From the NCBI RefSeq assembly GCF_019649055.1, contig NW_026570374.1:206546-270545 (forward strand): a stretch of DNA of 64,000 bases. The letters run 5' to 3'. Each line of letters opens with the position of its first letter. Positions within the stretch are counted from its first letter, which is position 1. A program made the translations under genes and the position numbers. Source of the stretch: Paramacrobiotus metropolitanus (Eukaryota; Tardigrada; Eutardigrada; Parachela; Macrobiotidae). The notes under the pieces are model-generated. The model was not told the DNA's origin, did no database searches, and saw nothing but the letters and a program-made list of their open reading frames with translations. Below, piece by piece: positions 18,862 to 64,000 of this stretch.

Positions 18862-21800
18862 ATGGAGCCCAACTCGTGGGGCGGACGGGCGTCGCCGCCG
18901 CGGGAGGATGACGGGGACAGGACGGCCGCCCCCGGCCCCGCTGCCCCCCTGCCCGGGGCGGATGCGTCGCAGTGTGAGTGCTGAATTGCTGATTAATCGC
19001 GATTACTGATTACTGATTAGCGGCTGATGATCGGTGGTCGTCGGTTATGGCTGATAATTGGCTCGTCTATTTACTGTATTTATTTATTCATTGGTGATAT
19101 TGTTATTTCTCCCGCTTTTCCCTCATCTTGGGGAGGCTCCGCTCCATCCCAGCTGCTCAGCAGTTAACACGCAGTATCACGGGAAACTTGCTTGGGGATT
19201 GTTTATTCATTTTTTCTTAGGTTGGAGGCCGTGCTTTAGTTAACTACTTGATCTCCCCGTTTTCGTTTAATGTTTCTTAGTAAGTTAATTCGAATTTTTC
19301 TTAAACTGGTTTTTATCATAAATTTGGTAATCTGTTCCTGTGTATGAATCTTCGCGAGGAGATGGTGAGTATTGCCAGTTGTGCAGCTGTGAGGGAGTAG
19401 TGTCGAGCGCCGGCCATCGGTCCGGCGCTCGTGCTGCGATCGTTCAGTGTACAGTGTACGGCGCGTAGTGGACGAGTGGCCTCTTTTCGCTGTGGCTGCG
19501 TTGTTCCGTTTCCGCGGCGCCACTGTGAGCAGTGAGCGGTGTAGAGCACATTTTGCGGTTTGGTTTGTAACTTTGTTCTATTTTTTACCGCGTTTGCCCC
19601 CGCCCAGGCCTGTGCCGATGCCGTCAAGTGAGAATTCACCGCACAAGTGAGCACGTGGTGTGTGTGGTCTGTTCACTCTGCTGCATCGGTGATCGGGGGA
19701 TCGGCTAACATATGCCGGTTGCGTTTTCACTGCGGCGGCTTATGCCTGCTACTGCCCTGAAAACGCGCGTTTTCACTTCTTGTCGCAGTGTGCCGGCTTA
19801 CGTGCAGTGATCTGTACAGACTGTACTGCAGGGCACGGGTGAGTGACAGTTGGAATCGGGGTATGCTTGTCACTGCGAGGCAGTGCCTAGCGCGTTCGCT
19901 CGACGCTAGAGAATCACTGGAAATAGTGCCGATGACGAACGCTTCAGCGGCGGCCGGGGGAGGGAAATAGACCGTCCCCAAGGAGACTGAGCGTTGCCGG
20001 AATTTATTTATGGACCAGTGCTGTATAGCGTCAAATTGCACCGTTCAGGCTCCATTAAAAAATAAAAAAACTGAAATAAATAGTATTGAAATAAGAAATT
20101 TTTCTTGCTGTGTTGCAGGGTGCGCGGAGTGTTGGCGCGGAATTAGCGATCCACCCTGCACCGTCCACGGCCCGCTGCACCACATCCCCGACCGGCCCCT
20201 GCCGCCGCGCGCCGTCGCCACCGCCCCCACCCAGGTGACAGTGCGCCGGCTGTCGCCCGCCGCCGATGGACGAACGGGTACGATTCCTGTTTTTGATGGC
20301 TGCTGCTGTATATTTCCTTAATCAGGGGCGTATTTCTTACAGTGCGAGGTGTCTTCGCCAGCGCCGACATCGCCTCCCGGACGCTGTTCGGCCCCCTGGA
20401 GGCCCCCGCGCTGTCCGTGCCGTTGTGCCTGGGAGAGGACCAATTTTTGCTCAAAGTCAGTTACAACTTGCAGATCAAAATTGCGCTCAGTTAACGAATT
20501 ACTTGTAGTTTAGATAAAAATCAGTCGTTGATTTTTTCAAATTTATTTTTAATTGATCTTAAATGCGGTTCTGTTTTCTTTCGAATACCGGATTTTCTTG
20601 TACCCAATGCATTCAGTTTAAAAAAAAATGGCAAGCATATCTTATAGAATATCGGATGATTTGAGATTGAGTAAAGTTTTTGATAAATCAGATTATTGTA
20701 AATTGCAGTAAAATAAGTCGATTCGGCTTTCATTTTATTTTCAACATCAGTTAAAAATTGAACAAAAAATGAAAAAATAAATTAGAAAATTAACTTGGAA
20801 ATAAATCGGAAAAAAACGGCGCGCTTGCTTCCCGCTTGCAACCGGCCATACCATACCAGCTGTATACAGAAATCTGTCGTGTTGCAGAAATTCCGCGCCG
20901 GAGAATCGAGTGCCTACCTGGATGTGAGCAACGAAGCCGAGTGCAACTGGCTCATGTACGTCCGTCCGGCCCGCAGCTGGGCCGAGCAGAACCTCGTCGC
21001 CTACCAGCACGAAGACGACATCTATTTCGCTGCCTTCAGAGTGAGTCTGCTGGTTGGTCGGGCGACGCACGGAAGTGTAACGTGTGCGTGTATGATCGTA
21101 GTTTATCCCGGCGCAAACGGAGCTGCGCGTGTGGTACTCCGAGGAGTACGCCGGCCTGATGGGCGTGGACCTCCTCAACGAGGCCCCGAAGACCCGCGAC
21201 GCCGCCGACCCGGTCAGCAGTCGGCGCCGCAAAGCCGCCCGCCCGCAGCGCGTCCCGCAGACCCGGCCGCCGCACATCGCCGTCGTGGAGAGCCGCGCGC
21301 CGCACCGTCCGCCACCGCCGCCCGTGCCCGTCCCGGCGCCGCCGCCCACTCCGGCGGTCTCCCTAATACTCAAGGACGAGCCCGCGCCGGTCTGCCACGT
21401 CGTGACCAACATCGCGCCGGCCCCGCCCCCTCCGCCGCCGGCGCTGCCGCCTGGCGAGAACATCCTGCTCATCTGCGAGAACCCCTCCTCCAACGGGATG
21501 CCGCCCACCTCCTTGTTGCTGCTGACCTCGGGACCGGCGCCCGCCGGGGCGATCGGGCAGTCCCTGCTCAAGACCTCCTTCGACATCCCCGTCATCGGCG
21601 AGTCCTTTGTACAGAAACGGCCCCCCATCAGGATTCAGCCGTCGCCCGGTCTGGCCGTCTCCTGGCCCGGTACGACAGCTACATTATTTACTGAAGAATT
21701 TTATTTCTTGTGTAGAAGTAGGGTTTATTTAAATTGTTTACTTATTAATTTTATTTAGGCATTTTTCTGTAATTTTTACGGTTAAACTAATTTAATAAAC

Positions 21801-23345
21801 TGCATAATTGATAATTTATTAAATAATTTCATGTATTTCGCTGTTATAATTTTTTTTGCAACTATTATTGTTGGCTTGTTATTTTTGAAAATGCATTTAT
21901 TGAACAGGAACAACGAAAAGCTCAATCGTGATTAGCTCAAACGACGAATCCATGGCCGACAGCATCCGCTCGCCCGGCGACCGCTCGGGCGACAGCGACG
22001 AGGATTCCAGCAGGGTGAGTGTGCACATACCTTGTGTCCGTTGCAGTCTTCGCCGGGGAATAAATCGGGGATTATTGTTGAACAGGAACAGCGCCTGCTG
22101 CGCTCCTCGGGCGGCAGTCTGCGGCCCTACATTTGCTCATACCCGGCCTGCAGCAAGTACTTCAGCTCCAAGTACAAACTCCTGCGCCACGAGCTCATCC
22201 ACTCGCAGGAGAAGCGCCATCACTGCCAATTATGCCATAAAAAATTCCACCGCAAGGTACGAATCATAACGAATGTATCCAGAATATTTGTATTATTATT
22301 TAGAATATTTTCTGATATTTTTATAGAGTAATTTTTGTGTGATTTCGTATTTTATATCCATTATTTATTTAATGGTATTATTCGTTTATCAGTAATTATT
22401 TACTCATCCATCGCAAGGTACGAAAACTATCAAGAATATTACCATTATTTTTTAGAATATTTTCTGATAGTTCTAATATTTTTTTCTGTTAATATGATTA
22501 TTATATTTCGCATTTGATGGCCATGTTCTATCTAACTTTGTGGTTAAATTTTTCATCAGTTAATTGAATTTCTTTCATTTTCTGTCGTTAATTACTTTTT
22601 AATTAACCAGTAATGGAGTGGGCCGGTTATTGAGTATGTTAATCGGTTGCAGGATCACCTGAACAACCACCTGAAGGTGCACGAGCGCTCGAAAGTGCGG
22701 CTGGAGTGCGTGCTGTGCGGGTGCGTGTTCGCCAAGAAGTGGACGTACGAGAAGCACCTGTCGTTGCATGAGCGCGACGCCAACCGCGGCGACGGGCCCG
22801 TGCCCATCCGCAGTCTGGAGGAGATGGACGCCGAGGAGGACAACGAGGAGGAGGACGAGCAGGACGCGGAGGACGACAACGAGCGGGAGGAGGAGGAGGA
22901 GGAGGAGCCCGAGCCCGACTGGGTCACCGTGCACCAGCAGTCCCCCAACTCCGCCTTCCACCTCGAGGCGCCCGCGTCCCCGGAGGAAGAGGAGGAGGCG
23001 CCGCCGCCGCCGCCCGTCCGCCAGGTGGCGCCGCCGCCGCCCAGTCTGATCGTCCGCGTCCAGCCGCCCCCGCCACCGGGGAAGCGCGCCATCCCGCTGT
23101 CGCAGCGCCCCGCGCACCCCTGTTCGTCGTGCGGGAAGGTCTTCTCGGCCTCCAAGGACCTGCGGCGCCACCTGCAGACGCACCTGGGCATCAAGCCCAA
23201 CCTGTGTCCCTACTGCCCCAAGAAGTTCACGCGCAAGGACCACGTGCGCCGGCACATCCAGACGGTGCACGGGCGCGACAAGGAGCTGCGCGACAAGAGC
23301 ATGGCCGCCAACGGGATCAACGAGCTGCAGGTGCTGGCGCAGTAG
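18862..23345 (+). CDS. PRDM-family PR-domain zinc-finger regulator, PRDM10-like
   Basis: Eight exons: 18862-18973, 20119-20277, 20343-20455, 20888-21040, 21102-21669, 21908-22014, 22047-22256 and 22653-23345. They give 704 residues. A C2HC zinc knuckle (WCAECWRGISDPPCTVHGPL) begins at about residue 38, followed by an IPDRPLPPRA segment. A PR/SET domain (about 85-205) contains FGPLEAP, CNWLMYVRPA, EQNLVAYQ and ELRVWYSEEYA. A proline-rich linker follows. Five C2H2 fingers come next: two around the exon 7-8 junction, one soon after, and two near the C terminus beyond an acidic run and proline tracts. The knuckle plus PR layout is typical of the PRDM4/10/15 group; PRDM10 is my best match. It is probably a nuclear DNA-binding regulator. 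Whether it has methyltransferase activity cannot be told from sequence. Confidence 0.88.
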
Positions 23346-27665: not shown

Positions 27666-30442
27666 ATGGGGCGCATCAAGAACCTGGAGATCATCCTGCT
27701 GGGCGACCGCAGCGTCTTCCAGCGCGGCGAGACGGTGCGCGGCAAGCTCATCATCGAGGTGGAGAAGCTCCTCAAGATCCGCTACATCCGCATCCTCATC
27801 CGCGGCGTGGCGCGCGTCCACTGGACAGGTACATTTGCACATTTGCACTACCGTACCGGCACATAACATATGTAGCATACAACATATTTATTGTACACTT
27901 ATACGTGTACAAGTGTGTTATATCTGTATACTATATATACAGAGTAGATAGATTGATATTTATATAAGAATGTAATGTATAAATATTAATAGTGCACAGA
28001 TGGACACTAATACATGTACAATACATGATTCGTATAATTGTATTGTATACTTATTCAAATACAGGTACATATAGTTCTATGGCATATGTATAGCTCTATT
28101 AATTGTTTCGTGTATATAGTTCTGATCGGGACTGCTGTTTTTTTTGGCAGCTTTGCTGTGATTTTGTTAACCCATGAGAACGGACAGTGAGTGTAGACTG
28201 CGTTCGAATGTAGAGCATATTTATGTATGTAGATACATTGTCTGTATACGTATGCTGTAATAAATGTGGCCATGGCATGTGCAGTGGGAAAAGACGTGCC
28301 GTGCCGTTAATTTGGTTAATGTGCAGAATCGCGGAACAACGGCGCGCGGCTGGGCGGCTACGGGATGCTGTACACGGAGCACTTCACGGCGGAAGTGGAG
28401 TACGTCAACAAGAAGCTCCTCCTGCTGGGCAGCGAGAACGGGGAGTCGCGCGAGACCCTGGCCGAGGGAAGGCACGAGTACCGCTTCACCTTCGCCCTCC
28501 CCAACAGGTGTCCTGCTCGCATAGACTAATTGGATCAATTTGTACTTCTATAATATCTCTTACAGTGTAGATATAAGATGACTAATACCGTAATATGCAC
28601 AAATACACTCGTACATATACTGAAGTATCATGTAGGGGCACATCCGGTCATGCGTGTGCTGTACGGTGTGTTAATTGCCATACTGATGTGCTCTCTTCGC
28701 AGCGCCATCGCCACGTCCTTCGAGGGCAAGTACGGCAGCATCCGCTACTGGCTGAAGGCCGAGCTGGGCAAGCCCTGGGCCTTCGCCTACAAGACCAAGA
28801 AGCCCTTCACCGTCATCAGGTACCGTACGCGTCACTATCTGTAGTCCCTACTGTACGCATAATCCGTCAATAATAATTCCAACTGACCCCTCCTCTTCCT
28901 TCACCAGCCCCATCGACATCAACCGCACCGAGTTCGGGACGCCCTCCGAGGCGGCGCTGGAGAAGATGATCTGCTGTCTGTGGTGCGTGTCCGCGCCCGT
29001 CCAGGCCGAGATCCGCACCGACCGCCGGTAAAATTCCATCATTCTTATATTATATAGATATACTATATATTGTGCTTATTTTATATATACACATTCTGTA
29101 TATAAAAATATTACATATGTTATTATATTTTTAAAGTGTATAAGATGTTGTACATATCCTTACTTATTGAGGCGGATGTTAAAATGCGCTTTGGCTGCAG
29201 CGGCTACTGCCCCGGGGAGTCCATCGCCATCAGCGCCCTCTTCACCAACGGCACGCGGCGCAACATCACGCCGCACGCCACCCTCTACCAGATCCAGTCC
29301 TTCACGGCCAACGGCAAGTCCCGCTCGCGCGCCATCAAGCTGACCACCGTCTCGGGCGTCAGCATCCCCGCCGGCGAGACCGGTTACTGGGACGCCCAGC
29401 TCCTCAAGGTCCCCGCCGTCTCGCCCTCCATCCTCAACTGCCAGCTCATCAAGGTCGACTACCAAGTCAAGGTGGGCGCGATAAAGGTCACGATGTGTAC
29501 CGTTGTTGCCGCGACTGACGGCTGTTCCATTGCAGATCACGCTGCAAGTGCCGGGCGCCTGCAACATCTACGCCGACCTCCCGGTGGTCATCGGCACCGT
29601 GCCCTGTCGGCGCCGCCGTCCGCCGCTGCCCAGTCTGTCGGTGGTGATGCCCGGCGCCACCTCCGACACGCTGCATCTGCGCCCGCCCGGGCCGCCGGCC
29701 TACCTGGAGATGGAGGAGGAGCTGCCTTACGAAGGTCAGTATCCGCCGCGACGATTCGCTTGTCATTCGATTCAACAGCGGTCTGTTGGTTGCAGCGCCG
29801 CCGACGTACGCCGAGTGCATCGGCGGCCCGGTCAACATCCTGGACGACGAGGACGACGAGGCGCAGATGTTCGGCTGCACCTCCTTCACGCCCATGTACA
29901 CCTACGTCTACGACCATCCCACCGGCTACGCCCCGCCGCCGCCCTACTCCACCTCGGCGGTGGACGCCACGGCCGTCGAGGTCGCCGTCCGCCCGGCGCC
30001 GGAGGACGGCGCCGCGAGCGGCGACTGCCAGGACGACCCCGGCGGAGAGGTGCACCGGCGCAGCGTGTTCAGCCAGTCGGCACGCGGCAGCCGCACCGGC
30101 AGCCGGCACTCGACGCGCTCGACCCGCTCGACGCCGGCCACGCGCCGCCATAAGACGGAGGAGGACGGGGAGACCCGGGCGCCGTTGCAGGACAACGAGG
30201 AGCTGGCGGAGATGATGATGATGGCCGCCGGGCGCAGTCAGCTGCTGGTCCACGGGCTGCCCTTCCCGGCCAGTGACAGCGAGGAAGAACAGGACGCGGA
30301 GAAGGACCGCGCCCCGGACGAGGAGGGAGAGGGAATCCCGGCACACACTTCCGCGGATGCCCCGGCGTCACCGCCGGCAACCGGGCCGCCGCTGACCCGC
30401 AGTATCCGTCTGCCCTCTGCGGGGCGGCGGCCACTTCCCTAG
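27666..30442 (+). CDS. Arrestin domain-containing protein (alpha-arrestin, ARRDC2/3/4-like)
   Basis: Seven exons: 27666-27828, 28327-28507, 28703-28819, 28908-29027, 29201-29471, 29536-29734 and 29796-30442. They give 565 residues. Alpha-arrestins recruit Nedd4-type ubiquitin ligases to membrane cargo. The arrestin N domain (about 1-150) includes HWTESRNN and ATSFEGKYGSIRYWLKAEL. The C domain (about 165-325) includes RGYCPGESI, VSPSILNC and DLPVVIGT. Two PPxY motifs follow, PPTY at 352-355 in an APPTYAE context and PPPY at 398-401; both have counterparts at equivalent places in vertebrate ARRDC3. The tail beyond residue 401 is long, acidic and Ser/Arg-rich and is not recognised. The start is chosen because MGRIKNLEI begins the first arrestin strand. 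An AATAAA follows at 30703. Confidence 0.93.
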
Positions 30443-49363: not shown

Positions 49364-51799
49364 ATGTTCGTGCAACGGCCCTGTGACGTCAACGTTGTGT
49401 ACGGCAGCGTCCTGCTGCACGGCCGTGTGGTGGACGTGGCGAACAACGGGATGTACATCGACCTGATGTGCCACGGCCGTCGACGCGAACTCATCCCGTT
49501 CCCCCGCCTTTTCCTATCCAAGTCCGAAGAATTCAGCGACTGGGCTTACAAATACTTGAAAAAACAGCGCCCTAACGAGACGGTTCCAGTGGAAATACTG
49601 CGGCGTGAATGTCCGGGTGGTGCGTGGCGCTGGTGGCCGGGGAAGATGCTCACCCTGACGCAGGAAGGGGATCCCACCATTCCCACGCTGAGCGATAACT
49701 ACGCCACTGTGGTCGTCGTCCAGGGCCAGGATGACGAGGGTGCCAGCTGGACGGACGTGGTGCCAAAGCAGCGTCTTCGCTACCCCGTGTCGGATTCTTT
49801 TTGGACGGGTAAACCGCAAGCACCATCGCCCAAGTGGTGGCCAGTGACGCGTCTGCTGCCAGTTGCCCCGGCACGCTTCATCCAGCGCCGTCTGCCACTG
49901 CCGGCCGAGTGTCGTGGGGCATCAGTGGCACAGGTTGTTGAGGTGATCCGGGAGTGTCAGAGCCAGCAGGCTGAGCAGCCGCTGGCCTCCAGGGGACGGG
50001 TGGTCTGGGTCGATGTCGCTGATGAGCATTTGCTTTTGAAAGTGAAGCTACACGGCGGCGATGGGTGTGCGCAGCGGCAAGCCGAACACATGGCACAGGT
50101 AATGCGAGGTTTTGCAGTTCCTGGCCATTTTAAAACGTTGGTTTAAGTTGTAGCCCACTGCAAGAGTACGTACTGTAATAATGTCAGTTTTTCTTTCTTG
50201 AACTTTGTCTCACTCTGTTCGGATGGAGCAAGGATTCGTGATTATCAGAGGATTATTCTCACGGAATGGTATACGCTGATGTGTTGTAGAAAATTGTTGG
50301 GACTTTGCTCGAGCCGTTGTTTGGTCGCCTTCCCGGCATCCTGCGTGCAGTGCAAGCGCCGGTTGAAGCTATGGATCTCGGCGCGACGTCGGATGAATCG
50401 CTGGCACTGGGAGCGGACGAGTGGCAGGAAGTGTTCGCCCATCTGGTTACGCTGACACGGCAGAAGCTGCGCGTCGTGTGCCCAGCATGGGACGCTATTC
50501 TGGACTTACCTACTTTGACGGCCAGCATCATCGTGGAGACGGAGGCTCGCAGCAAAGACTTGCCTGATCTTTCCTACGCCCTCACCGCGCCGCTCTTCAA
50601 ATGCCTGCGCTCCTCCACCCAGTACGTTGTGCTGCACGATCGCGCTGCCTGCATCAACCGTGCCCAGTTCTACACTGTCTTGAAAATGATCCGCCACGTG
50701 TCGCGTAATTGCCAGCCCGCGATCCGTCTGACAGCGCTGTATGTGGTCGGCTTCTCTGACTTGCCGTCGAAAGTTTATCAGCGTCTCCGTGACCCAATTG
50801 AATCCTGCGATGTGCACGAGCATCCCCGAGACCACAACCGGTCCACTTTTTTCAAGGGCTTTCTACAAGAATTCATCGCGGTCTCCCGCAGTGTGACGTG
50901 TGAGACCATCAGTCTGGTGCGCTGCCCGGTGAAGTTGGAATACAATCTGGATTTCCGGCAGCAGAGCTCGATGTCCCTGGCGCTGAATGTCGACATGGCC
51001 AAGGTGCGTCTGTCGTTGAGCGGGGATTTCGCGGCCACGGTGTGGAATGCAGTGGAGGCGCTGCTGCCGGCGCCCAGCGACGGTGAGGTGCGAGCGTTAT
51101 CGGCGTGGTTGGCGTCCATCTCTACGTCGGCAGACGAGCGCCACCAGGGGCACCGAATGGCAGTCTGTAACGTAAGTGCCGGCGTTGAATCTTTCCCAAA
51201 TGAAAATAACAAGAATACGTTAGGAATATAAGTGTGCTTGGACGTTTTCGCATTCCGGACACTTTCGCAGTACGAACTCGCGTTCGCCTGCGTTATTGCT
51301 CATTGCAACCAATTTAATGGGCAATAGCCACCACGATGACAATGACTGCAAGCGCCGGTACACTACTTAATAGTTAAAATTTAAACATTAAAAAAACAAC
51401 CAAAAAATCTTTGAACTAGATAATGGTGTAGAAGCTTGCATGGTGTACAAGCTTGTACAAGACCGCACTGATTATCACGTGATACTGAATTTTGCAAAGT
51501 TTTTGCCACGTGAAACGAGGCGCATGCGCAGATTGCCGGGTTTCTGGCATGCGGCAAGCGAATTCTTAATATGGATACTTCTATGGCCGGAATGCGAAAA
51601 ACGTGCAAGTTCTCCATTTTCAGTGCAGCGCATTGTGTGTTTTCAGCTCCTGTGTGCGACGCAGACCGCTGATCCGCGTTCCTCCTTGCACTACCGCGGG
51701 AAGAAGTGGTGCTCGGACGGACTGTACAACCTGTGCGTGCCGAATCTCTCGCGTACTGCCTTGTGCTTCCTTCTCGTCCTGTGCAAGAGATGCCAGTAA
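49364..51799 (+). CDS. F-box protein with beta-rich N-terminal module (family copy 1)
   Basis: Three exons (49364-50098, 50290-51171, 51647-51799) join in phase 0 to give 589 residues. The N-terminal module (about 1-140) contains GRVVDVANNGMYIDLMC and RRRELIPFPRLF, then WRWWPGKML. A second related unit (about 150-245) starts FIQRRLPLPAEC. An F-box-like helical segment lies at about 283-320 (WQEVFAHL, RQKLRVVCPAWDAIL). An unrecognised alpha/beta region follows, and a short cysteine-rich end (WCSDG, LCVP, LCKRCQ). F-box proteins act as substrate receptors of SCF (Skp1-Cul1) ubiquitin ligases. That role is inferred from the F-box-like segment, which lacks the usual leading LP. Two paralogues lie within 15 kb. 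The last exon is less certain than the first two. Confidence 0.7.
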
Positions 51800-52276
51800 C
51801 ACCTCGGTTCTTTCCTTATGGAAGCATTTTTCTTCTTTATGTTGTTTTCGGTTTTTTCCAACGGAGTTTTGCGTTGGTAATTTGATGTTTTGTTTTGCGG
51901 GCGTTTCCGGCTGACAGCCCGATGGGGTGTTGCTGTTAGTACAGATTCCTAATTTTCTAGTGTTTTTTCGAAACGAATGCAAAATTAACCAGTGTGATAA
52001 CAAATAGTTTTACGATTGAAAGCTTAGATGAGATGGTCATTGAATGAGATTGTTTATTCGGTGCTTACAGCAAGACGAATGTGGTTTCTTTCTGGTACAG
52101 CCGTAAAGATAATATTGTCGCTTGAGGTGCATTTAATATTGATTGGGAGTCAAATTGAATACTGGGTGTCAATCTCAGCAAGTGACATTCGTGCTCCAAA
52201 TACCACAAGCCCGTTTATGTGCATGGTCACCACGGCTTATCCTACATCCCATTCGCGAATACAATGTAGTAATGTA

Positions 52277-52450
52277 CATACGACGCCGCCTATATCTGCG
52301 ATAGCGTAGCCCGGCGCTGCCGATGATCCCACTCCCAGTGTAATAGGCGGGCCACAAGGGCGCGGTCGAAACCGGTCGTCTTTACATCCAATCGGCGTCT
52401 ATACATACGACGCCGCTTGTATATACGGGAGCGTGGCCCAGCGGCGTCCT
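52277..52450 (+). repeat. 124-bp repeat unit, about 1.4 copies (locus A)
   Basis: The word TACATACGACGCCGC occurs at 52277 and again at 52401, exactly 124 bp apart, each followed by related sequence containing GCGTAGCCCGGCG or GCGTGGCCCAGCGGCG. The unit includes CGAAACCGGTCGT at 52367-52379 and a perfect 7-bp hairpin, CGGCGTC (52393-52399) with GACGCCG (52409-52415). The same unit recurs at 61.74-61.92 kb. Confidence 0.75.
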
Positions 52451-53198
52451 AGCGATAGAAGTTGTACAACCATAACACCACCCAGTTATGATTCATCATT
52501 GCGTTATGAATTTCTGTCCATTTTACCGGCTAGCTGTTCTTCTTCACGATTTCTAGAATTCGGTCTTGGATTCGCTTGTTACAGCTTGCATCAGCGTGAT
52601 TAGCTTGTTCCGCTTGTTAAACTCTTGTCTAAACCTTGGTCCCTGTCTTGCATTGTTCTTGTCATTAAACATGCCGTGGACTTCCGTTGTTACGTCGTTG
52701 AGTTACAGAGTTAGTAAGAGCGCCCACGACCGCACCGTTGCCGGTCGTGCCAACCTTTCATCCCAACAGTCCACACAACATCGTGGTACGGTCAACACGC
52801 CAACCCACTAGAACAGCAGCCAGATCGGCTACTGTTACAGTATACGCTGATCGGATGTGGAGGCGACCAGGATCGCGCGCAGAACTGTGGCGTGCGTACT
52901 CTTGTAAGGGCTCAGAGTGGTCAGGGGAAGTGCTGTACTGTATGTCTAAACTACTGCACGTAAACGAAGCGTCTGCGTCTGACTGGATACCGGTATCTTT
53001 ACTCATCTTGGTCTTCTGATACATAGATCTAAACTCATGCAACTCCCAAGGTCTAACAGCAGCCTTGAACTGCTTATATACTTTCTTACTGCACATCAGA
53101 ATGTTCTAGAACAGCGTGCATGCGTCAGCATGCACCGGAAATAGACAATGCCAAATATGTAGATCGCAGAGCGCGACTCTACACTCTTACGGGACCGT

Positions 53199-53247
53199 AG
53201 GCGGCGCCGGGCCACGCTCCCGTATATATAGGCGGCGCCGTATATAT
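53199..53247 (-). repeat. Inverted copy of the locus A repeat core
   Basis: Read on the minus strand, this segment gives GGCGCCGCC, TATATATACGGGAGCGTGGCC and CGGCGCC, closely matching 52401-52447 on the plus strand. TACGGGAGCGTGGCCC is identical in both. The pair is about 0.8 kb apart in inverted orientation. Confidence 0.75.
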
Positions 53248-54629
53248 ATTTACTCATATATATGCCGGATGGGAGGTAGTGGCAACTAGTGCGCGCGGTA
53301 CTCTGTCCTGCGAATTCCTGCGAGACCTGCGGCAGCCATCCGGGCTCCGCTTCCTGGGCGGCGGTGTTTGCGCTCCTTTATTAAGACCAACGGGTACATC
53401 AGCAGGAGGCGACGAGAAGGTAGCGGATCCGAGACTGGCGCATTGTATTAAAATGGATTTGGAGCGTTTAGTTATAGTACTTGACGGAACATTGTAATAA
53501 TTGTCAACGGAATGACTTGTCACTTGTGCTTCGTGGTGCAGACTGATATGAACGAAATACTGTTACAGACGCGGTCGCACAAACTTTGTGCCACAAAGCA
53601 CAAGAACTTTCACAAGAAGCCAAAATGATCAGTACGAGACCTACTGCGTGCACCTACTAGGGAAACTACGGCATGATAAAATGGATTACAAAGAGGAACT
53701 CGATTGCGAGTTTTACTTTACGCACTCCTGCGTTGTACGAGCACTATCAATGCGCATCCCATTGGATTGCAATAACACTATACAGTTCAGCAATTAATGG
53801 TATCGCTGAACTACGTGTAATGTGCACTGCACTGCAGCGGCAACGCGATTGACTTAAAAAGTCATGTCCTACATTCCTCCAAACTCAGCAGAGTCCACAT
53901 TGATAGTGTCTGTGAAATCTAGTAGGTGCCCCCGCACCCCGTATGTACGTGACCGTTACCGTTACACTATGCAACTGAAGATGCCGCCAAGGAACTTTAC
54001 CGTAAAACTAATAACACTCCTAGTTAATCTCGTATTGCATAGCTAACCACATTGTCCTCGTCTTCATGGATGTGCTGCGCCGGTTGTGGCGATGCTGTCC
54101 GTACTGCTGGTCACCTGGTGTCTCCAGCGCGTGCGCCGCACTAAGCGCGCAGAAGCGCGCCGCAACCAGCATCGATAGCCGTATAACGCCTCTGCGCGCC
54201 ATGTAGCGGTGAATGTGGGAGTTAGCTTCGGTGTCGGTCGGCTCTGTCGTTGAAGAGTTGCAGCATGCGTGTTGCATCATACCGTCACGCGCCGTACCAG
54301 GATGAGAGAAACTGCTTACAAGTGACGAATGCACTGGCCAAAAGAATGGCAACCCGACGAGAACGTAACTTCCGATAAACAGACGCGGCGTGCGTCGAAA
54401 TGGAATCCATTATTTTGCCGAAGCATACAAAAATTCATATTTTGCATTTACCGCCAGCAAAATGAAACGGTCCCATACGAGATTAAACCCATTCGCACAA
54501 GTACAAGGTATACTCCATCCTGCCGACCATGCAGTTTTTACACGAGTAGGAATTAGAGAAAAGGGGAATTTAAGAAATTTAAACCTGCGCAGTCACTATA
54601 AGGTGTAATTACTGATAATACTGTGACAG

Positions 54630-56093
54630 TTAAAGGACAACCTCGCCAAGGTCAAAGACGACCTCCGGGAGACCGCCGCCCACCTCCAGGACCGCGAGAC
54701 CGAAGCGGCGACCCTCCGCGCTGACCTGCAACGGGAGCGCACCGCGCTGCTCAACCGCAAGCAGCGCCACAACACCCTGCACAAACAGGCCCGTAAGTTG
54801 ATGGAGGAGCGCAACGCGCTGACGGGGCTCCTGCGGCAGAGCCTCCTGACCCCGGCGGACTTGGAGGCCCGTCTGCGGACCGCCGGGATCCCGACCAGCG
54901 TCCCGGCGGTGGCCACGGAAAAATCTTACCTCCAGGCATTGTTTGAGAAGACCGGGACACCGCTGGTATCCCCGGAGGAGGTCCCCGAGGTCCCTGAGAC
55001 CCAGGAGCCGTTGCGGCTGGTGCAGAGCCAGCGGGAGGTGGGCGGGGCGGTGGATAACGGGGATATGCCGCGGTTCACGCTGAACGAACTGCGCCGGATG
55101 CTGAACGAGCGCAACCACCTCAAGGCAAAGGTCATGGAGCTCCAGGATGAGCTGGCCGCCGGGAAGACGCCGCGCGCCGCCTTGGACGCCCATCTGCAGC
55201 CGTGGCGTAACGAGTACGCGTTTTTTTTCATGAAACATTCAACTACTCTAAACATTCTAAACATTAAAATACTTAAATGAAATAATAAAATTGAAAAGGA
55301 TTAGGGCGTAAAAACAGATTGTAACAGTGAAAATATTAAATAAAAGTTTTAAAAATTACAAATCGATATGTATGTACAATTAAATAAAAAATAAAAAAAT
55401 AAGGTTAAAAAATTATTACGAATTAAAGGTATAAATTAGAAATAATGTATGTACAGTACTACAATATTAATTCAAAAAGGCAATAAAAATATAATGGAAG
55501 ACTTGATGGTTAGATAATGCAACGCAAAATGGAAATTGCAGAAATCCGGCGTCGGGCAGCACGGCGCCGATGCAGCGTTGCCGACGAGGCGGAGTCAAGC
55601 GCGCTGGCGTCGACGGAGGCGGACAGTGTGGCCAGCCAGACGGACGACGAGGAGCGTGCAGGGCCGCGAGCCCGACGACAAACTCGCCGGCGCCGCAGTC
55701 GCAGCAAGCCCCGCCCCTCCATCATCCGCAACCTGTAAGACCAGCCCACCTCTTTTTCTCATTGGCTGGCTGGATTCAACGCTTTCTACGCATTATTTGT
55801 AGATACTTCTGTGGTAAACAAAAATGAAAAACAAAAAAATAGATTTAATTAGTAAATAATCTAACGAAACTGATCTACAAAATGCAACAACCAAAAAAAT
55901 TAAATCAGTAATATAATAATGACCTAAGAAACCTAAGAAACGCAGTAACCTTTAGGAAGAAATCGAAAAAGATGATAACTGAAGTGTGTTATTAAATAGG
56001 TACAAAGGCCTGTTCGGCGAGAAGCTGACGGCCATCGTGAAAGACGGCATCTTCTACAAACTGGCCGAGAGCAGCGCCCATTTGACGGACTAA
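54630..56093 (+). CDS. RILP-like protein (RILPL1/2 family), 5' end missing
   Basis: Three visible exons: 54630-55206, 55542-55734 and 56000-56093. They have matching phases and encode about 287 residues. RILP-like proteins bind Rab GTPases and link organelles to motors; RILPL1/2 act near cilia and lysosomes. The first visible exon is a long Glu/Arg/Leu coiled coil. It is followed by MPRFTLNELRRMLNERNHLK AKVMELQDELA (split here for length), the RH2 motif that binds phosphorylated Rabs in this family. The next exon is Arg-rich. The last reads SIIRNLYKGLFGEKL across the junction, like the basic hydrophobic tail of RILPL1 (IIKKLFFF type), then stops. The RH1 domain expected upstream is not found, so the start is unknown. 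A GTAAGT at 54793 lies inside the first exon but the frame continues coherently past it. Confidence 0.8.
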
Positions 56094-56867
56094 ACCGATG
56101 GCCAACCGCCCGCGGACGCCAGTCCCCGCTCTTCCCGGATCTCAGCCCCTTTCGATTCCGCGCTTCTTCAGCAGTCTTGTTGATCAGCTTTATTTTGAAA
56201 ATGTTTTGAAAATTTTGTGAATTCCCCGATTATTGTTTATTTCTACTCCCGCTGTGAATTAATCGCACGCAACGAATTCCCTGTCGCTACACTCTGGCTT
56301 TCTTTGGCGATTTTCTAAATTCTTATCCACATTTTTCTATTTATTATGTAATTAATCAGTAACGAACATTGGCAGAAGAAAGGCGTTAAACTATTTTTCA
56401 GCTAATCGAACCAACTGGAATCCCAGTTTTCGATTAGAGCCAAAAATCGCCAAATTAATTATGTCATATGTGTAAGAGTATGGCAACTGGTACTGCTGCC
56501 GGCGACACAGCCCACCGCTACCAGGTGACAGCTCGATTAATTAGCGATTCAAAGAGCATCGAATCAGCGATAAAATATATTGCGGAAGTGTTACGACAAT
56601 CGGCTCACCATTTTCGGCCAAGCCAGCTTTCCACAAGCTCATCGACACTACAAACTGTCCATTTGAATTTTGCGCTGGAAATTGTCCATCAGTTTTTTCT
56701 CGCTTGCTCACTTGTCAGGCTCACCATTTTCCTTCCGCTTTCGAGTTTTTCGGGTGTAGCTTTGTGTGCTCTTCTTTATCTCGTCACGATATTCCTCCAG
56801 ACTACCTGCGCTTAACCTCGACGTGATTAAGTTACTGGATTTGTGATCGTTTCTCGCTCACTGCACA
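56094..56867. other. Spacer between the RILP-like gene and F-box family copy 2
   Basis: No clear AATAAA and no recognisable exon. It contains a 115-codon open frame starting at 56468 that has no domain or coding texture I would trust. Confidence 0.45.
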
Positions 56868-57920
56868 ATGGATTGTGGAAAGGTACGTGAGCGCAGTGCT
56901 GCGCAGTCCGCAGACTTCGCACTGACTTCGCACAGCGCCTTTTCGCTGGCAGCGTTTTCTTCCTTTTCTTCCGTGTTTGTTCGGTTGTCCCTTCTGTAAA
57001 TGCTAAGAAAGACTATGCATAAGTAACAGAGTAGGCTGTTAAGAGAGTAGCACACCCTGACAGCAGGGAAGTTCTGCACAACCTCGCAAGGAGCTACGTG
57101 AAGGCAGTGTCTCGCACACTCTGCACAGCTGCTTTTTGCTTGCAACGATCGATTGCCTGTTTTCACCATGAAGACGAAGCGTGAAGTGCTCATCTCGTTG
57201 TAGTTGCAGCGCCGTCGCATCAGCCTGGCATCGCTGCAGGAAATGTCGCGGGAGCATGCGATTAGGCTGAACGAGCGCTATGACTGCGTGGACGTGTGGA
57301 GCGACGAGGGACCGCTGCAGTTCGGGCGGGTGGTGGACGCGGGCTCCGGCGGCCTGTTTGTCGATTTGCTCTGCCCGGGGTGGCGCCGCCACTTCGTCCC
57401 CTTCGGGCGCGTCTTCTGGATGCGGGGGAATGGCATCGTGCCAGACTGGAAGCGCGTCTACGGGAGGACGTTGTGGCCGGTGGAGGTGCTTTGGCGCTGC
57501 CATCCCCACGAACCTTGGACCTGGCGGGGGGCGCAGCTGGTGGTGACGGCCAGGGACGACGACTATCCACGAACGAGCGCCGGATTAGTACGGCTGTGCG
57601 ACGCGGCCGGCCGGGCGAGAGGGCCTTTGCAGGTCGTCCCCTGTCCCCGCATCCGCGACGCTGGCTGGGATGCGGTCCGCCGCAGCGGCAGCGGCAGCAG
57701 CGTTCTAGCGGCTGCTGCGAACGGACGACCCCCCGGGGAAGAGGAGTTGCGGCGCTATTACGGGAGTGGTTACAGGGATGGTTACGCCGATCTCTTGGTC
57801 GGTCCGGAGTCGTTCGTCTTCGGCCGGCTGCAGTTGCCGGCGGCGTGTACCGCTGTATCGGAGGAGACACAGCGCTGTTTGATGGAGGCCTGGCTGAGCC
57901 GTTCCCAGCTGTGCTTATAA
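56868..57920 (+). CDS. F-box-family N-terminal module gene, stops before the F-box (copy 2)
   Basis: A 15-nt exon (56868-56882, MDCGK) and a long exon (57204-57920) join in phase 0 to give 243 residues. The product is paralogous to copy 1: GRVVDAGSGGLFVDLLCPG and RRHFVPFGRVF against GRVVDVANNGMYIDLMC and RRRELIPFPRLF, then WTWRGAQLV, then a second unit with FVFGRLQLPAACTAV. Unlike copies 1 and 3, the frame ends (QLCL, stop) where copy 1 continues into the F-box exon. It may be a truncated gene, or a donor I cannot see may splice out the stop. Alternatively translation starts at ATG 57243 (MSREHAIRL). The start exon is a moderate guess; the paralogy is strong. Confidence 0.62.
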
Positions 57921-57965
57921 CGTGACATTGTGTGCAGCAGAAGTTGGTTTCTCGCTGAATCAGGT

Positions 57966-58209
57966 TCAACAGTCTGGGTCCCGGTGACGATCCGCGGCGC
58001 TGGGAGACGCTGGACCTGCGCCAGCTGGATGTGGCCACGCTGAACAAGCTGACCTTCGCCGCGCTGAACGGATGCTACCAGGTCGCCGGCGGAAGAGGAA
58101 GAGGAGGACGACGACGACAACGATGAGAAAACAACGGCAGCGCAGAGCGAGATCAAGGCGGATAGTGTCAGTCAGTGTGTTGGTGTTGTCCGTGGCTGGT
58201 TTTATCTGA
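57966..58209 (+). other. Exon-like segment downstream of copy 2, frame inconsistent
   Basis: Preceded by CTGAATCAG, one frame reads FNSLGPGDDPRRWETLDLRQ and LDVATLNKLTFAAL, then runs to a stop at about 58127. The next frame turns into an acidic run (EEEEEDDDDNDEKTT). The leucine/aspartate wording could be the remains of the C-terminal part of copy 2, but no F-box consensus is visible. Confidence 0.3.
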
Positions 58210-59872
58210 CAGTTGGTGCACGAGTTTGTCCTCACCCGCCCTAATCATGCACTGCGCCGGTCTTCGCTGAGTTTGATGTTGATTTTGGACCGCAGTTTCG
58301 TTTCATTTGCACCTCGTGTACTGCACTGGTCAGTTGCTAGTATGGTATAAGTTTTCTTTGACTTGGAGTTTTTATTAAAGTGGGGGACCATTGACTTAAC
58401 GGCTGCAAATGCTCGCTTACTAGTTGCTGCACATTTCATGAGAAAGGTCATTGTAAACCACCGTAACTGATCCAACCGCCGACGGCCAACCATGAGAGTA
58501 TTCCGTAATAAATGACACAGTTAAGCAAATAAATTACCAACATTTAATCTGCAAAATACTGGCAATAAGTTTGCAAAGTTATCCGCTCAATAGGCCCAAT
58601 AGCTGCGACTTGTCTTGTGGAACTGCCTGACGACTTGTCGGTCGTTTAGCCGATAAGCGAAGGCCGACGTCGCAGTCGCAGCAGACACCGCAGCTGCGGC
58701 GAATGTCCCGTCTGCACAGTTTAGCCCTCCCGTGCGACCGGCTTTCCCCGGCATTAATTATCTAATTTTAATATGGCATTAATTAATTATTCTGGCCGCT
58801 ACTCAGGAATCAAAAATTTAACACACAGCCGCTGTGGCATCAGTACTAGCGCGTATTATGCCGGCGCATTTAAGCATATTTAACGCTTCCTCGATCCTCG
58901 ACCAGCATCAGTCTTATGCGCTCCACTCCATCTTACACGCGGCCATCCTCAGCAATCACTCCATCTAGCGACATCAGTTATATTCAATGTTTGATCCTGC
59001 ATATCCTTATGCGCATCCTGTACGTGCCATCGGAGTTATATATATGTTCCCAGCGATAATGCGGACTGCACGCCCTGGCCAACTGGCATATTGAAGATTA
59101 TTTGTCAGGCTCAACCGGAAGTACCGAAGTCCATCTATATCCCACCAGAAGTGCTGAGATACTTCACCGCAGCGCACCGCAGCGTTATCATGCTTCACCT
59201 GTAATTCCCTTCCGTGGAATTCTGGATCCGCTGATCCCGTTCGATTATTATTGTACAACTTTACTGCATTGTTTACGCCTGCCCCCAATCCACATTCTCA
59301 TTCCCTCCATCAACCGGCATTTCCCCCGCTCCGGCGCAACACAACAACGTCCACGCAGACTGACCTGACCGGCAATTCGCAGTGAACGCACTGCCACCAC
59401 GGACGGCATCCCGCGTTTCCTGCGCCTATCATCGTAGCGGCGTTATATGTACCTTCTGCTCATGGAAACAGATACAGCATTGCGACAGTACGTATCGTAT
59501 AATGTGTGATAAAATACGCAATACATTTATGTACATAACTCGTATAATACTATATTATTATTGAGCAGCGTGTATAGAATAGAATACTATAGAATCCTCT
59601 ATGTTTACATGTATAAATTGATGTTTTATACATGTAAAAAATTAATAAAACATGGGGATGTATAATTATGTTAATTGATGTACGAGTACATAAATTGCAT
59701 AATATGAACGAATAGATGTACATGACTGCATGCATTAAATATAACAAAGATATATAAATCTATTGATACACTTATATATATAGTAATGGGCGTACCTATA
59801 AATGGCATATGCACTATATTTATTGTATTACAGCACGTACAGTGGTATAATTAAGCGAACGTGGCATTGCAG
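58210..59872. other. Spacer with GCCGG-rich and AT-rich parts
   Basis: 58.6-59.45 kb repeats the mixed GCCGG and TATATA style of the 31-39 kb block. 59.5-59.85 kb is strongly AT-rich with TATA and ATGTA words. No exon is seen. Confidence 0.4.
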
Positions 59873-60069
59873 GTGGTGAAACGGCAGGTGCTGGCGGGCG
59901 CCTACCCCGGCCAGTCGTACCACCTACAGCTACATCCCGCAGACCTCCTTCAGCTGCACGCAGGTCAGACAGTTCGGCTACTACGCCGATCCCGAGACGC
60001 GCTGCCAGGTCTTCCGCCGCTGCGAGGCCAACAACTTCATGTTCTCCTACATCTGCCCCAACGGCACCG
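59873..60069 (+). pseudogene. Chitin-binding type 2 (CBM14/peritrophin) exon with a frame break
   Basis: After a CATTGCAG acceptor the frame reads KRQVLAGAYPGQSYH. One base out of frame from about 59922 it continues YIPQTSFSC, FGYYADPETRCQVFRRC and SYICPNGT up to a G/GTTAGC donor at 60070. The cysteine spacing C-x15-C-x5-C-x10-C and the Y-Y-A-D, CQVF and CPNGT words are those of the first four of the six cysteines of a CBM14 domain, an extracellular chitin-binding module of ecdysozoan cuticle and peritrophic proteins. The exon with the last two cysteines is not found to the right. The break may be a true lesion, a base-calling error, or a misplaced acceptor (CAG at 59885-59887). Confidence 0.62.
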
Positions 60070-60373
60070 GTTAGCGCATCTACATGTATTCTCATCCATC
60101 TTCAACGCCATTTATTACTTATTAATATTACCATAATTTCTTTTTAACGGAATGTTCTGATAATTGTTTCTGATTTATGGCCGTCATTTATTCTAACGGA
60201 TTCCGGAGCGTAGTTTAGTATTTTACTCAGTTAGTTTATTACTTTTCTGTACGGTGGGAATTTTAATGTTTTGTATGATCAATTTAGGCACGGTCATTTA
60301 ACGGATTTTTTATTAAATACGCACACAGGTGTTTTCATCGTATCTTCATCGGTGTATTTTTGCCATATTCACA

Positions 60374-60413
60374 CATATAACGCGGGGCCGTATGGGCGCC
60401 CCGCGTATCCTCG
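60374..60413 (+). repeat. 40-bp direct repeat, left copy
   Basis: It contains ATATAACGCGGGGCCGTATG and differs at one base from the copy at 60980-61019. The 606-bp offset brackets a GC-rich interval. Confidence 0.9.
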
Positions 60414-60750
60414 CACTGTCGCGCCAGATCCAGGGTCCAACCCGGAAACGGGTAAATTCCGTGGTTTCTTCAGCAGGGGAAAGGTCACGTTCTGGGGAAA
60501 TTTGGGCAGGGGTTTGGGGTCTATGTGGCCCGTGACCCCTGCAAAAAAAATAAAACACGCAAATCCGCGGTGAAATCCACTGCTCCGTCCGGGGGGAGGT
60601 CGCCGTCCCAGGAAGTTCGGGCAGTGTTTTGGTGGGGGAATTCTTCGGCGTGGTGCTGGTGGTCGATCCGTGCCGTTGGGATCGGAGTTGGTGCTGCTGT
60701 TGGCGGTGTATCCGTTCTGGTTTCCCGCTGGTCCGGGTCGCGTTCGCCGT

Positions 60751-60808
60751 CGGCATCGCAGGAGGCAATTCTCGCTCCACGGCATCGCAGGAGGCGTTTC
60801 TCGCTCCG
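60751..60808 (+). repeat. 29-bp tandem repeat, two copies
   Basis: CGGCATCGCAGGAGGC starts at 60751 and again at 60780, each followed by a near-identical tail ending TCTCGCTCC. A third partial start (CGGCATC) follows at 60809. Confidence 0.85.
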
Positions 60809-60927
60809 CGGCATCTCCGTCCAGTTTGGGAAGCATCCGTCGCGGGGAGGCGTCCGTCCCGCGGGAATGGGGGGGGGCATTTGTAGCTCCACACGTGGGG
60901 GTTAAATTGGCTCAAATAATCAGAGGA

Positions 60928-60954
60928 GCCGTGCGCGCGGGCAGCGCGCACGGC
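60928..60954. repeat. Perfect 11-bp GC hairpin
   Basis: GCCGTGCGCGC (60928-60938) pairs with GCGCGCACGGC (60944-60954) around a 5-base loop. Confidence 0.9.
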
Positions 60955-60979
60955 CTGGCTCGCAACCATGATCTGCGAC

Positions 60980-61019
60980 CATATAACGCGGGGCCGTATG
61001 GGCGCCACGCGTATCCTCG
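60980..61019 (+). repeat. 40-bp direct repeat, right copy
   Basis: Partner of 60374-60413, with a single difference (GGCGCCACGC here, GGCGCCCCGC there). Confidence 0.9.
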
Positions 61020-61743
61020 ACAGCGGACAGCGGTGAACCCGGATGAGGCTTTATTGCCGAATCTAATGCGCACCGTGGCGCAGCAACACCAGACTAACAA
61101 GGAAGGATTCTGCAGCCAGTGCAACTGTGCTGCAGATCCGTCAAAACAGCGCAGCAATGTGCGGGGTGGAAATCCCCAGAAACAGCGAATAGCTACTCAG
61201 GAGGGCGGGGCGTCCCGCCCTTACACACACTATGACTAGATTATAAGTCATTTATAACCAACTATTTTTCGCTGCAGTCTTCAGTCGGGTACAAGTACCG
61301 TACTTGTACAGTACACTGGGCTTCAAAATGACTCTGTCAACGCATACCCATTAACCACCGGTGCGTATAGCGCTATCGCTGTGGGCATTACCACTTTTAT
61401 GGCGTCCAACGTACAGTGTACGTCAAAAATTCTGTTTATTTTGAACACCTGCATTCCTTACAAAGGTAAAGGGTAAAGGTGAGGTGTTGTAATTCTGCGA
61501 TCCAGTGCAGCCAGCAATCTGAAACAAGATATCTCCATCAGTCTGGAGCTGTTTCTGTTTCTAGTTTTATTAGTCTTTGCAGTTTGCACGTTGTTTTTCC
61601 ACAGCTCGATCCAGCGACCTCCTTTGGCCTTGATTTTTTCTTGTATCCCGCGAAATGCAGCTTCTCAGTGACATTAGAAGGGGATACTGGGGAAACGGGA
61701 ATATTGGGCACGAGTGGAACAGCGTGGACGTGCTGATCGACGG

Positions 61744-61917
61744 GCGCGCGAAACCGGTCGTCTCTATAGCGCATCCGGTATAAATGCGGTGCACCCTGTA
61801 TATATGCACATGGAAGCGTAGCTCGGCGCTGTCGACGGTCCCGCTGTAACCCGCGGGCAACAATGCGGCGCGCGAAACCGGTCGTATATACATTGCATCC
61901 GGTTTATATGCAACGCG
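61744..61917 (+). repeat. 124-bp repeat unit, about 1.4 copies (locus B)
   Basis: GCGCGCGAAACCGGTCGT starts at 61744 and again at 61868, a period of 124 bp, each followed by a GCATCCGGT..TATATGC-type hairpin. Between them lies GAAGCGTAGCTCGGCGCTG, matching GATAGCGTAGCCCGGCGCTG at locus A. The same unit length and order at two loci 9.5 kb apart show a dispersed family. Confidence 0.75.
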
Positions 61918-62168
61918 CATTATATATACATTTCTGTATTTCTATATTTCTGTATTTCTTTTCTATATTTCTAGTTTTCTGTATTTCGGCATTCAATACT
62001 ACTTTCTTCTTGATATACTGATCTGTTAATAATTTCTATTCGAAAAACCAAAAAAGCTCCACACAACGATAGGTCCATGCGGCAAAATGTCCCAGTTCGG
62101 CAACGAATAGTTCTGCTAGTTATCACTTCAACGAAACATCACATCGCTAGTTGTCACCAGTAGTTACA

Positions 62169-64000
62169 TCACAGAAACATCCAAAAACAAAATGTCCATA
62201 CAACGAACCGTCCTGATACCATTAAATTTTGTCTTCCGACCAAAAGTCCTCTAAACGAAACGTGTCGCGACGACTTGTCACAGAGCCAAACGCGCCACTC
62301 GTTGGACCAGCGGGGCAAGCCGACACTGCCTGGCCGCACTAGTGACTTCTCACAGACATCCCGCAACTGCGTCAGCCGGTCTGCAGCGGCATCTCGCAGG
62401 TGGAATTTAACATTGACTAGGACGCTGGTCCGGGCCACTGACACCGACACCACCACATTGCACGTCGCTCCCAGGTTGGACAGCTCCTCATGGAGATAGT
62501 CCAAGTTATCAATCCGGTTGTCGCGCTGACTGAATTCACAACGCGAGAAAACCAGCGTCTTCAAGCGAAGCTGCCGCAATTGATTCACAAACACTCCATA
62601 CACGCCGCCCCATTTCCACTCCGGTAACGCTGACGGGTTGTCCAGTACGACGGTGTGCGTGGCGCAAGTGGCGTACTTGAGCATACCAGCCGCCACCAGG
62701 AACCGCTTTGTCAGTGTATCGTACTTCCCCAGGAAGGGCTGTCGGGAGATCCACAGATGCTTCCCGATGGCCCCCGCATCCAGCATGGCCTCCCACAGGC
62801 GGCAGACGCGCCGCACCCGCACCCGCTCGTTGCTGTCCAGCGACTGGAAGACTTCCGCCAGGATTTCCCGTGCCAAAGGAATGCCGCGTCCCGCTTGCAG
62901 TCTTTCGGTGGACGTCGATGGACCTTCGAGCCTTGTTAAAGGGGGAACGCAACGCTTGGCAGTCCATTCCCCTTCTTCTCGGCGTTCTTCACTTAGGACG
63001 TCAGTGGGTTTGGCCCGGTACTTTACGAGGAAGGCCAAAATCTCTTCCTTCAAAATTCCATATAAAAATTATTGTTAGTAATTGAACGACTGTACGATTC
63101 TGTGAAGTGCATAGACTATTAATTATCCCATAACAATTTTTCACAGATATTGTATATCGGCATACTTCAAAGTACAGATAAACACATTGCAGTTTTTTCA
63201 GTTCACTGCAACTATTTGCTGGAGAGTCGCAGAAGTCGAAGAAAAACATTCTGCCACATTCCGTAGTGCCACACTGGCAAAACATTCTGTTACGAAAAAC
63301 ATTCTGTAGTGCCCGACTTACCAAGCGCTCGAGAGAAACAGCCCGTCGTTCATCGTGGCGCTGGAAGAACGTGACGGTGTCAGAACGAACGGCGATGCAG
63401 CGGGCATCGAACCTCCGACCGAGCTCGTACCACAGCCCTTCCACAGACTCTGGGTGCACAGACCAGTATCCGCCGGGCAGACGGCACTCACGGCGGACAA
63501 AACACTCCGGGGTCACGCGGCGCCCCTGCAGCTCATGAAGGGACGGCACAGCGCGGATCTGCCACCGAGGGACCAGCTCCTTCACGCGCGCACCCTCCCA
63601 CTCCGCCTCCACCAGCAAACAACGGGTATCTTCGAAAAGCGCCTGGCGCACCTGCGAAGGGAGTGACAGCTTCACATGCGTACGCTAAATGCCCGCAAAA
63701 TAATTTAATCCGCATTTCAACAACGCTTCCTCGCTTGGTTAACGATTTCGCAACTGTGAACAATATCTCAAACTGAGTCAAAGTTGGCTGATTCGATTGT
63801 GGATTGCGGACTGAGTTGACAGATGTGCATTTCGAAATCATCATGCAACGTCGAACAATGAGCATGGCAGTGCCAACACTACCGACCTGGGCATCCTCGG
63901 ACAGGGCTAGCTGGACCGGACACCACGTCCACGCGCGATCACGTCCGAAGCGCAGCCGAGCTTGCAGAGGACGACTCTCCGCCCACGCCATCACCTCTCT
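62169..64000 (-). CDS. F-box protein with beta-rich N-terminal module (copy 3, enters from the right edge)
   Basis: Minus strand, exons in transcript order: from beyond 64000 to 63887, then 63651-63322, then 63047 down to a stop at 62169. All junctions are in phase 0. The first visible exon carries RDRAWTWCPVQLALSEDAQ, matching the WRWWPGKML region of copy 1. The second has AEWEGARVKELVPRWQIR and FVRRECRLPGGYW, matching the second unit. The third has the clearest F-box of the three: IPLAREILAEVFQSL then ERVRVRRVCRLWEAML. After it comes an unrecognised region with VVLDNPSALPEW and VFSRCEFSQ. The acceptor at 63048 has a weak pyrimidine tract. The real C terminus may splice away before 62169 (a GTATCA donor lies near 62223). 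Confidence 0.7.

Follow-up and report, generated by a model that had tools for sequence, protein, structure and literature searches.

The question raised by this locus was what kind of proteins are encoded by a group of related genes at the end of a tardigrade contig, and whether the two parts of these proteins correspond to anything known. The window (the whole stretch of DNA analysed, 64 kb) is the final 64 kb of its contig, and the genome searched comprised 169.8 Mb in 533 contigs. A preliminary description, made from the letters of the window, had reported three paralogues within 15 kb on both strands, and matches to family module and F-box profiles bore this out, with the three genes at 49364–51231 (+), 57243–57920 (+) and 64000–62169 (−), referred to here as copies 1, 2 and 3, respectively. 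Their features are as follows.

49364..50098, + strand: copy 1 exon 1, FMRP-type tandem Tudor and KH0-like domains, 245 aa (Tudor 1, residues ~8–53; Tudor 2, ~74–141; KH0-like, ~161–232); open frame with GT donor at 50099
50290..51231, + strand: copy 1 exon 2, F-box and alpha/beta C-terminal domain, LRR-like at best; AG acceptor
50401..50517, + strand: copy 1 F-box; matches the family F-box profile, which has it as one of its rows, at E 1.2e-24
57243..57920, + strand: copy 2, tandem Tudor and the first part of a KH0-like domain; single open frame ending inside the KH0-like part
63887..64000, − strand: copy 3, first exon visible in the window, containing the start of Tudor 2; GT/AG boundaries, phase 0
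63322..63651, − strand: copy 3 next exon, end of Tudor 2 and KH0-like domain; tblastn with the module of locus L083, 36% identity, E 9e-10; GT–AG, phase 0
62169..63047, − strand: copy 3 last exon, encoding the F-box and the C-terminal domain; above the curated Pfam cut-off for PF12937 (E 1.6e-5) and for PF00646 (E 3.1e-4); GT–AG, phase 0
62766..62882, − strand: copy 3 F-box; Pfam, and family F-box profile E 1.5e-10

The intron between the two exons of copy 1 is GT–AG and in phase 0, joining the frame. Copy 3 appears without Tudor 1 because the window stops at the contig end, and the 5′ part of the gene lies beyond it. The unit GRVVD...RRxxxPFxRxF that the preliminary description had noticed in copies 1 and 2 was confirmed as common to both, which matched the family module profile at E 3e-78 and 1.5e-62, respectively; the second unit, corresponding to the end of Tudor 2 and the KH0-like part and followed by an F-box, was common to copies 1 and 3, again as described. 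The profile E-values of the three copies thus indicate relatedness far beyond chance, with the caveat that both alignments, module and F-box, include copy 1, and that the module alignment also includes copy 2. The proposed joining of the module to an F-box held for copy 1 and, with the second half of the module, for copy 3, but not for copy 2, near which tblastn with the F-box exons of its nearest relatives revealed neither an F-box nor an F-box remnant.

The module had been thought to contain no known domain, with a strong match to one named as the result that would speak against this; such a match was found, since both fold and profile comparisons pointed strongly to the N-terminal region of FMRP/FXR proteins. 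The structure model, the profile and the hhalign comparison were all based on an alignment of 39 paralogue modules (A1). The model had a mean pLDDT of 83, and the top 10 Foldseek matches in the PDB, at E 1.1e-8 to 3.7e-4 and probability 1.00, were without exception N-terminal structures of FMRP, FXR1 or FXR2. VIA-align placed residues 4–231 of the model on residues 1–176 of FMRP (4ova_C) with Z 11.2 over 172 residues and an rmsd of 6.2 Å; Foldseek TM-scores against FMRP were just 0.4–0.5, with an rmsd of 6–8 Å, which we read as a different domain placement. Alignment of A1 with three FMRP-family sequences by hhalign gave 96.7% and E 3.8e-10, spanning, in order, both Tudors and the beginning of KH0, in comparison with E 0.07–0.85, none better than 0.07, for 20 column shuffles of A1. 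In the whole genome, PF18336 (the Pfam FMRP Tudor) matched the FMR1 orthologue (7.9e-11) and then members of the superfamily, lying above the cut-off in two bridging genes (3.6e-7 and 3.6e-6) and under it in one gene with module and F-box (1.1e-3). These bridging genes were also matched by the A1 profile, at E 6e-6 to 5e-8, as was FMR1 itself, weakly but in register. Copy 1 alone produced no useful match against Pfam or, with phmmer, against the PDB, and a search of PDB sequences with the module profile (hmmsearch) produced no match; thus the similarity to FMRP is visible solely by profile–profile and fold comparison. By sequence profiles and the model, the module has a tandem Tudor (Agenet) pair of FMRP/FXR type.

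The structure alignment extends through the KH0-like part to FMRP residue 176. PF17904 (the Pfam KH0) matched only the true FMR1 gene and no module locus in the genome, so the KH0 assignment is mainly structural and is the least certain part of the module. As for the KH1, KH2 and RGG region, Pfam revealed no KH match in copies 1–3 or in the F-box half, and copies 1 and 3 carry an F-box instead; therefore these are not FMRP proteins but bearers of the N-terminal module of FMRP. The comparison with the FMRP, FXR1 and FXR2 N-terminal regions (PDB 4ova, 4qvz, 3h8z and 3kuf; PF18336 and PF17904) accordingly shows the same order of two Tudors and a KH0-like domain together with profile similarity, whereas the module genes have an F-box and a C-terminal domain in the place of KH1/KH2/RGG, a KH0 that Pfam does not recognise, and hundreds of copies against the one FMR1 orthologue found. 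To our knowledge, FMRP-type tandem Tudor–KH0 modules are known solely from the small, conserved FMR1/FXR family.

Several related loci were observed alongside the family. The FMR1 orthologue (locus L070, contig C5:3433812-3433952, −) is a normal one: a single long open frame encodes its tandem Tudor, its KH0 and KH domains and its glycine/arginine-rich regions. Loci L071, L072, L073 and L075 (contigs C106, C209 and C54) are short first exons that encode a Tudor 1 of FMRP type and have Pfam Tudor_FRX1 matches, two of them above the cut-off; no F-box was found within 1.5 kb of these loci, which may represent a further FMR-derived subfamily. Loci L074, L077, L078 and L079 contain open frames of ~280–340 aa with FMRP/Agenet-like Tudor pairs, the F-box being absent from the stretch read, and are possibly another divergent branch.

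Tudor pairs of FXR proteins bind trimethylated lysine weakly via Tudor 2 (PMC2970552). In Tudor 2 of the present family, one Trp was invariant across the alignment, and a second cage position, judged from the alignment only, was Trp in several subfamilies and absent from copy 1. This variation of the second cage aromatic suggests that the ligand may differ among subfamilies.

Modelling of the second half of the proteins was based on an alignment of 35 exon-2 sequences (A3), and yielded a mean pLDDT of 78, with ~88–94 across the F-box. The preliminary description had proposed that a predicted structure be inspected for a Skp1-type F-box fold, and this fold was found: the top matches included the SKP1-bound proteins FBXL5–SKP1, SKP2, FBXL2–SKP1 and KDM2A–SKP1 (E at best 0.011; probability 0.98 for FBXL5), and FBXO31 matched over 41 columns at 1.7 Å. 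PF00646 matched 22 of the 35 family members. Sequence motif and fold together assign an F-box of the SKP1-bound type to copies 1 and 3, and not to copy 2. The C-terminal domain resembled the LRR chains of FBXL and NLR proteins only weakly (VIA Z 4–6, at most 6.0), and among the 35 members there was no match to Pfam LRR, nor to the FTH or FBA2 Pfam domains at E 0.01. The family is like F-box/LRR proteins (FBXL5, FBXL2 and SKP2) in that SKP1-bound FBXL structures are the best folds for the F-box half, and differs from them in its short C-terminal domain with VIA Z 6.0 or less.

The family had been regarded as local and as the product of fast local duplication, but its distribution is not local, and such duplication does not account for the three copies in the window. 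At least 534 distinct module loci were located on at least 119 contigs, pooled from five genome searches with the best 150 candidates each; some of these loci contain stop codons and may be pseudogenes. Dense module clusters were present on other contigs. Copies 1 and 2 share only 28% identity, whereas copy 1 has closer kin in a cluster on contig C8 (53% identity) and copy 2 at a locus on contig C48 (84% identity); the nearest group to copy 3, among the loci read, lies on contigs C168/C137. The three copies are thus neighbours from three different subfamilies and do not represent a fresh local burst.

Linkage of the two halves was widespread. The genome contained 1083 F-box candidates, the best 150 of which were all above the cut-off; in half of these best 150 (75), one of the listed modules lay upstream in the same orientation and no more than 3 kb away, compared with 4 in which it lay downstream and 10 in which it was on the other strand. 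Conversely, an F-box exon was present in the flanks of 52 of the 60 module loci read, and among the 8 best F-box loci, picked without use of the module, 4 carried one. Pairwise distances calculated from the module correlated strongly with those from the F-box half (Mantel r 0.90; 0 of 2000 permutations), indicating that the fusion is old and was duplicated as a single gene. The closest pairs exhibited dN/dS of 0.24–0.62 across both halves; both are under purifying selection, constrained yet fast.

The explanation that we favour, at a probability of roughly three in four, is that these genes form a family of SCF substrate receptors, expanded in this lineage and equipped with FMRP-type readers, in which two Tudors and a KH0-like domain precede the F-box. 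An SCF substrate-receptor role had been suggested from the outset, and it gained support from the F-box matches in the majority of members, the SKP1-bound fold matches, the size of the family and the purifying selection. We infer that the F-box would dock on Skp1–Cul1, Skp1 genes being present at 4 loci, that the FMRP-type half and the C-terminal domain would hold the target, and that the target so held would be ubiquitinated; the choice of target would lie with the reader half, possibly directed at methylated proteins or FMRP partners. By this account a single old fusion gene gave rise to several hundred copies, which diverge under constraint. A wider scenario is rather improbable as a whole: a single lineage of tardigrades would have recruited the reader of FMRP for target recognition in over 500 SCF receptors, whose diversity would serve protein degradation, perhaps directed at shifting threats inside the cell (viruses, transposons or selfish proteins) or at marked chromatin or RNP proteins.

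Alternatively, the proteins might be decoys or competitors rather than ligase receptors, the FMRP-type half binding FMRP partners or RNPs and the F-box acting simply as two helices that bind protein, with no ubiquitination to follow. The F-box of copy 1 is degenerate, with no Pfam match on its own and recognition by the family profile alone, copy 2 is devoid of any F-box, and the genome contains Skp1 genes at 4 loci against ~1000 F-box candidates, all of which would fit such decoys. Nevertheless, Pfam recognises the F-box in most members, and mean identity revealed it to be the second most conserved segment (46%) after Tudor 1 (55%), in contrast to 29% in the C-terminal domain, which together with Tudor 2 and KH0 makes up the more variable parts; we therefore consider decoys unlikely.

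Less probable still is that the module is a general Agenet/Tudor chromatin or methyl-lysine reader whose likeness to FMRP arose by convergence. The plant tandem Agenet readers (ADCP1/AGDP1) have a similar tandem Tudor/Agenet fold and were the next family after FMRP in VIA-align (Z 8.2), and weak PF05641 matches occur in the family (best E 4.1e-4). However, FMRP/FXR ranked clearly higher both in VIA-align and in Foldseek (1e-8 versus 0.19 for the next match), PF18336 matches family members, and the Tudor pair is followed by a KH0-like domain in the same order as in FMRP, whereas the plant structures have neither KH0 nor F-box. A toxin–antidote role or another selfish role has been proposed for some nematode F-box genes, and multiplication of the present genes through drive, not through service as receptors of the host, would agree with the very high copy number, dense clusters and rapid divergence; we regard it as very improbable here, the shared history of the halves and the purifying selection being expected equally of host genes.

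The genes resemble the F-box-FBA2 and F-box-FTH families of Caenorhabditis (PMC8665587) in their very large lineage-specific F-box expansion and in having a partner domain that is divergent and comparable in size, and differ in the additional, FMRP-like module N-terminal to the F-box. Our search of the open literature, itself incomplete, found no paper joining FMRP/Agenet modules with an F-box expansion or describing an F-box expansion in tardigrades, and a survey of F-box genes and TEs (PMC12062965) makes no mention of Tudor, Agenet, FMR or tardigrades. Each part is known, and the combination and the numbers appear to be new, known here from one tardigrade genome: a domain combination in which an FMRP-type module occurs at several hundred loci of one animal, mostly with an F-box. 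The many natural variants in the family sample the surface of the FMRP reader deeply in sequence, and they offer a specific case in which to test which targets are recognised by large F-box expansions in animals.

Other features of the window were noted in passing. A coiled-coil protein with a match to RILP (Rab-interacting lysosomal protein; E 5.6e-9) is encoded at 54627–55280 (+). A PRDM-like gene at 20786–23345 (+) combines a PRDM2-type PR domain (E 3.2e-17) with C2H2 zinc fingers downstream, and an exon at 29106–30215 (+) contains an Arrestin C-terminal domain (E 2.3e-15). At 61743–61928, a 62-base element starting with GGCGCGCGAAACCGGTCGT occurs twice, 124 bases apart, and is perhaps part of an interspersed repeat.
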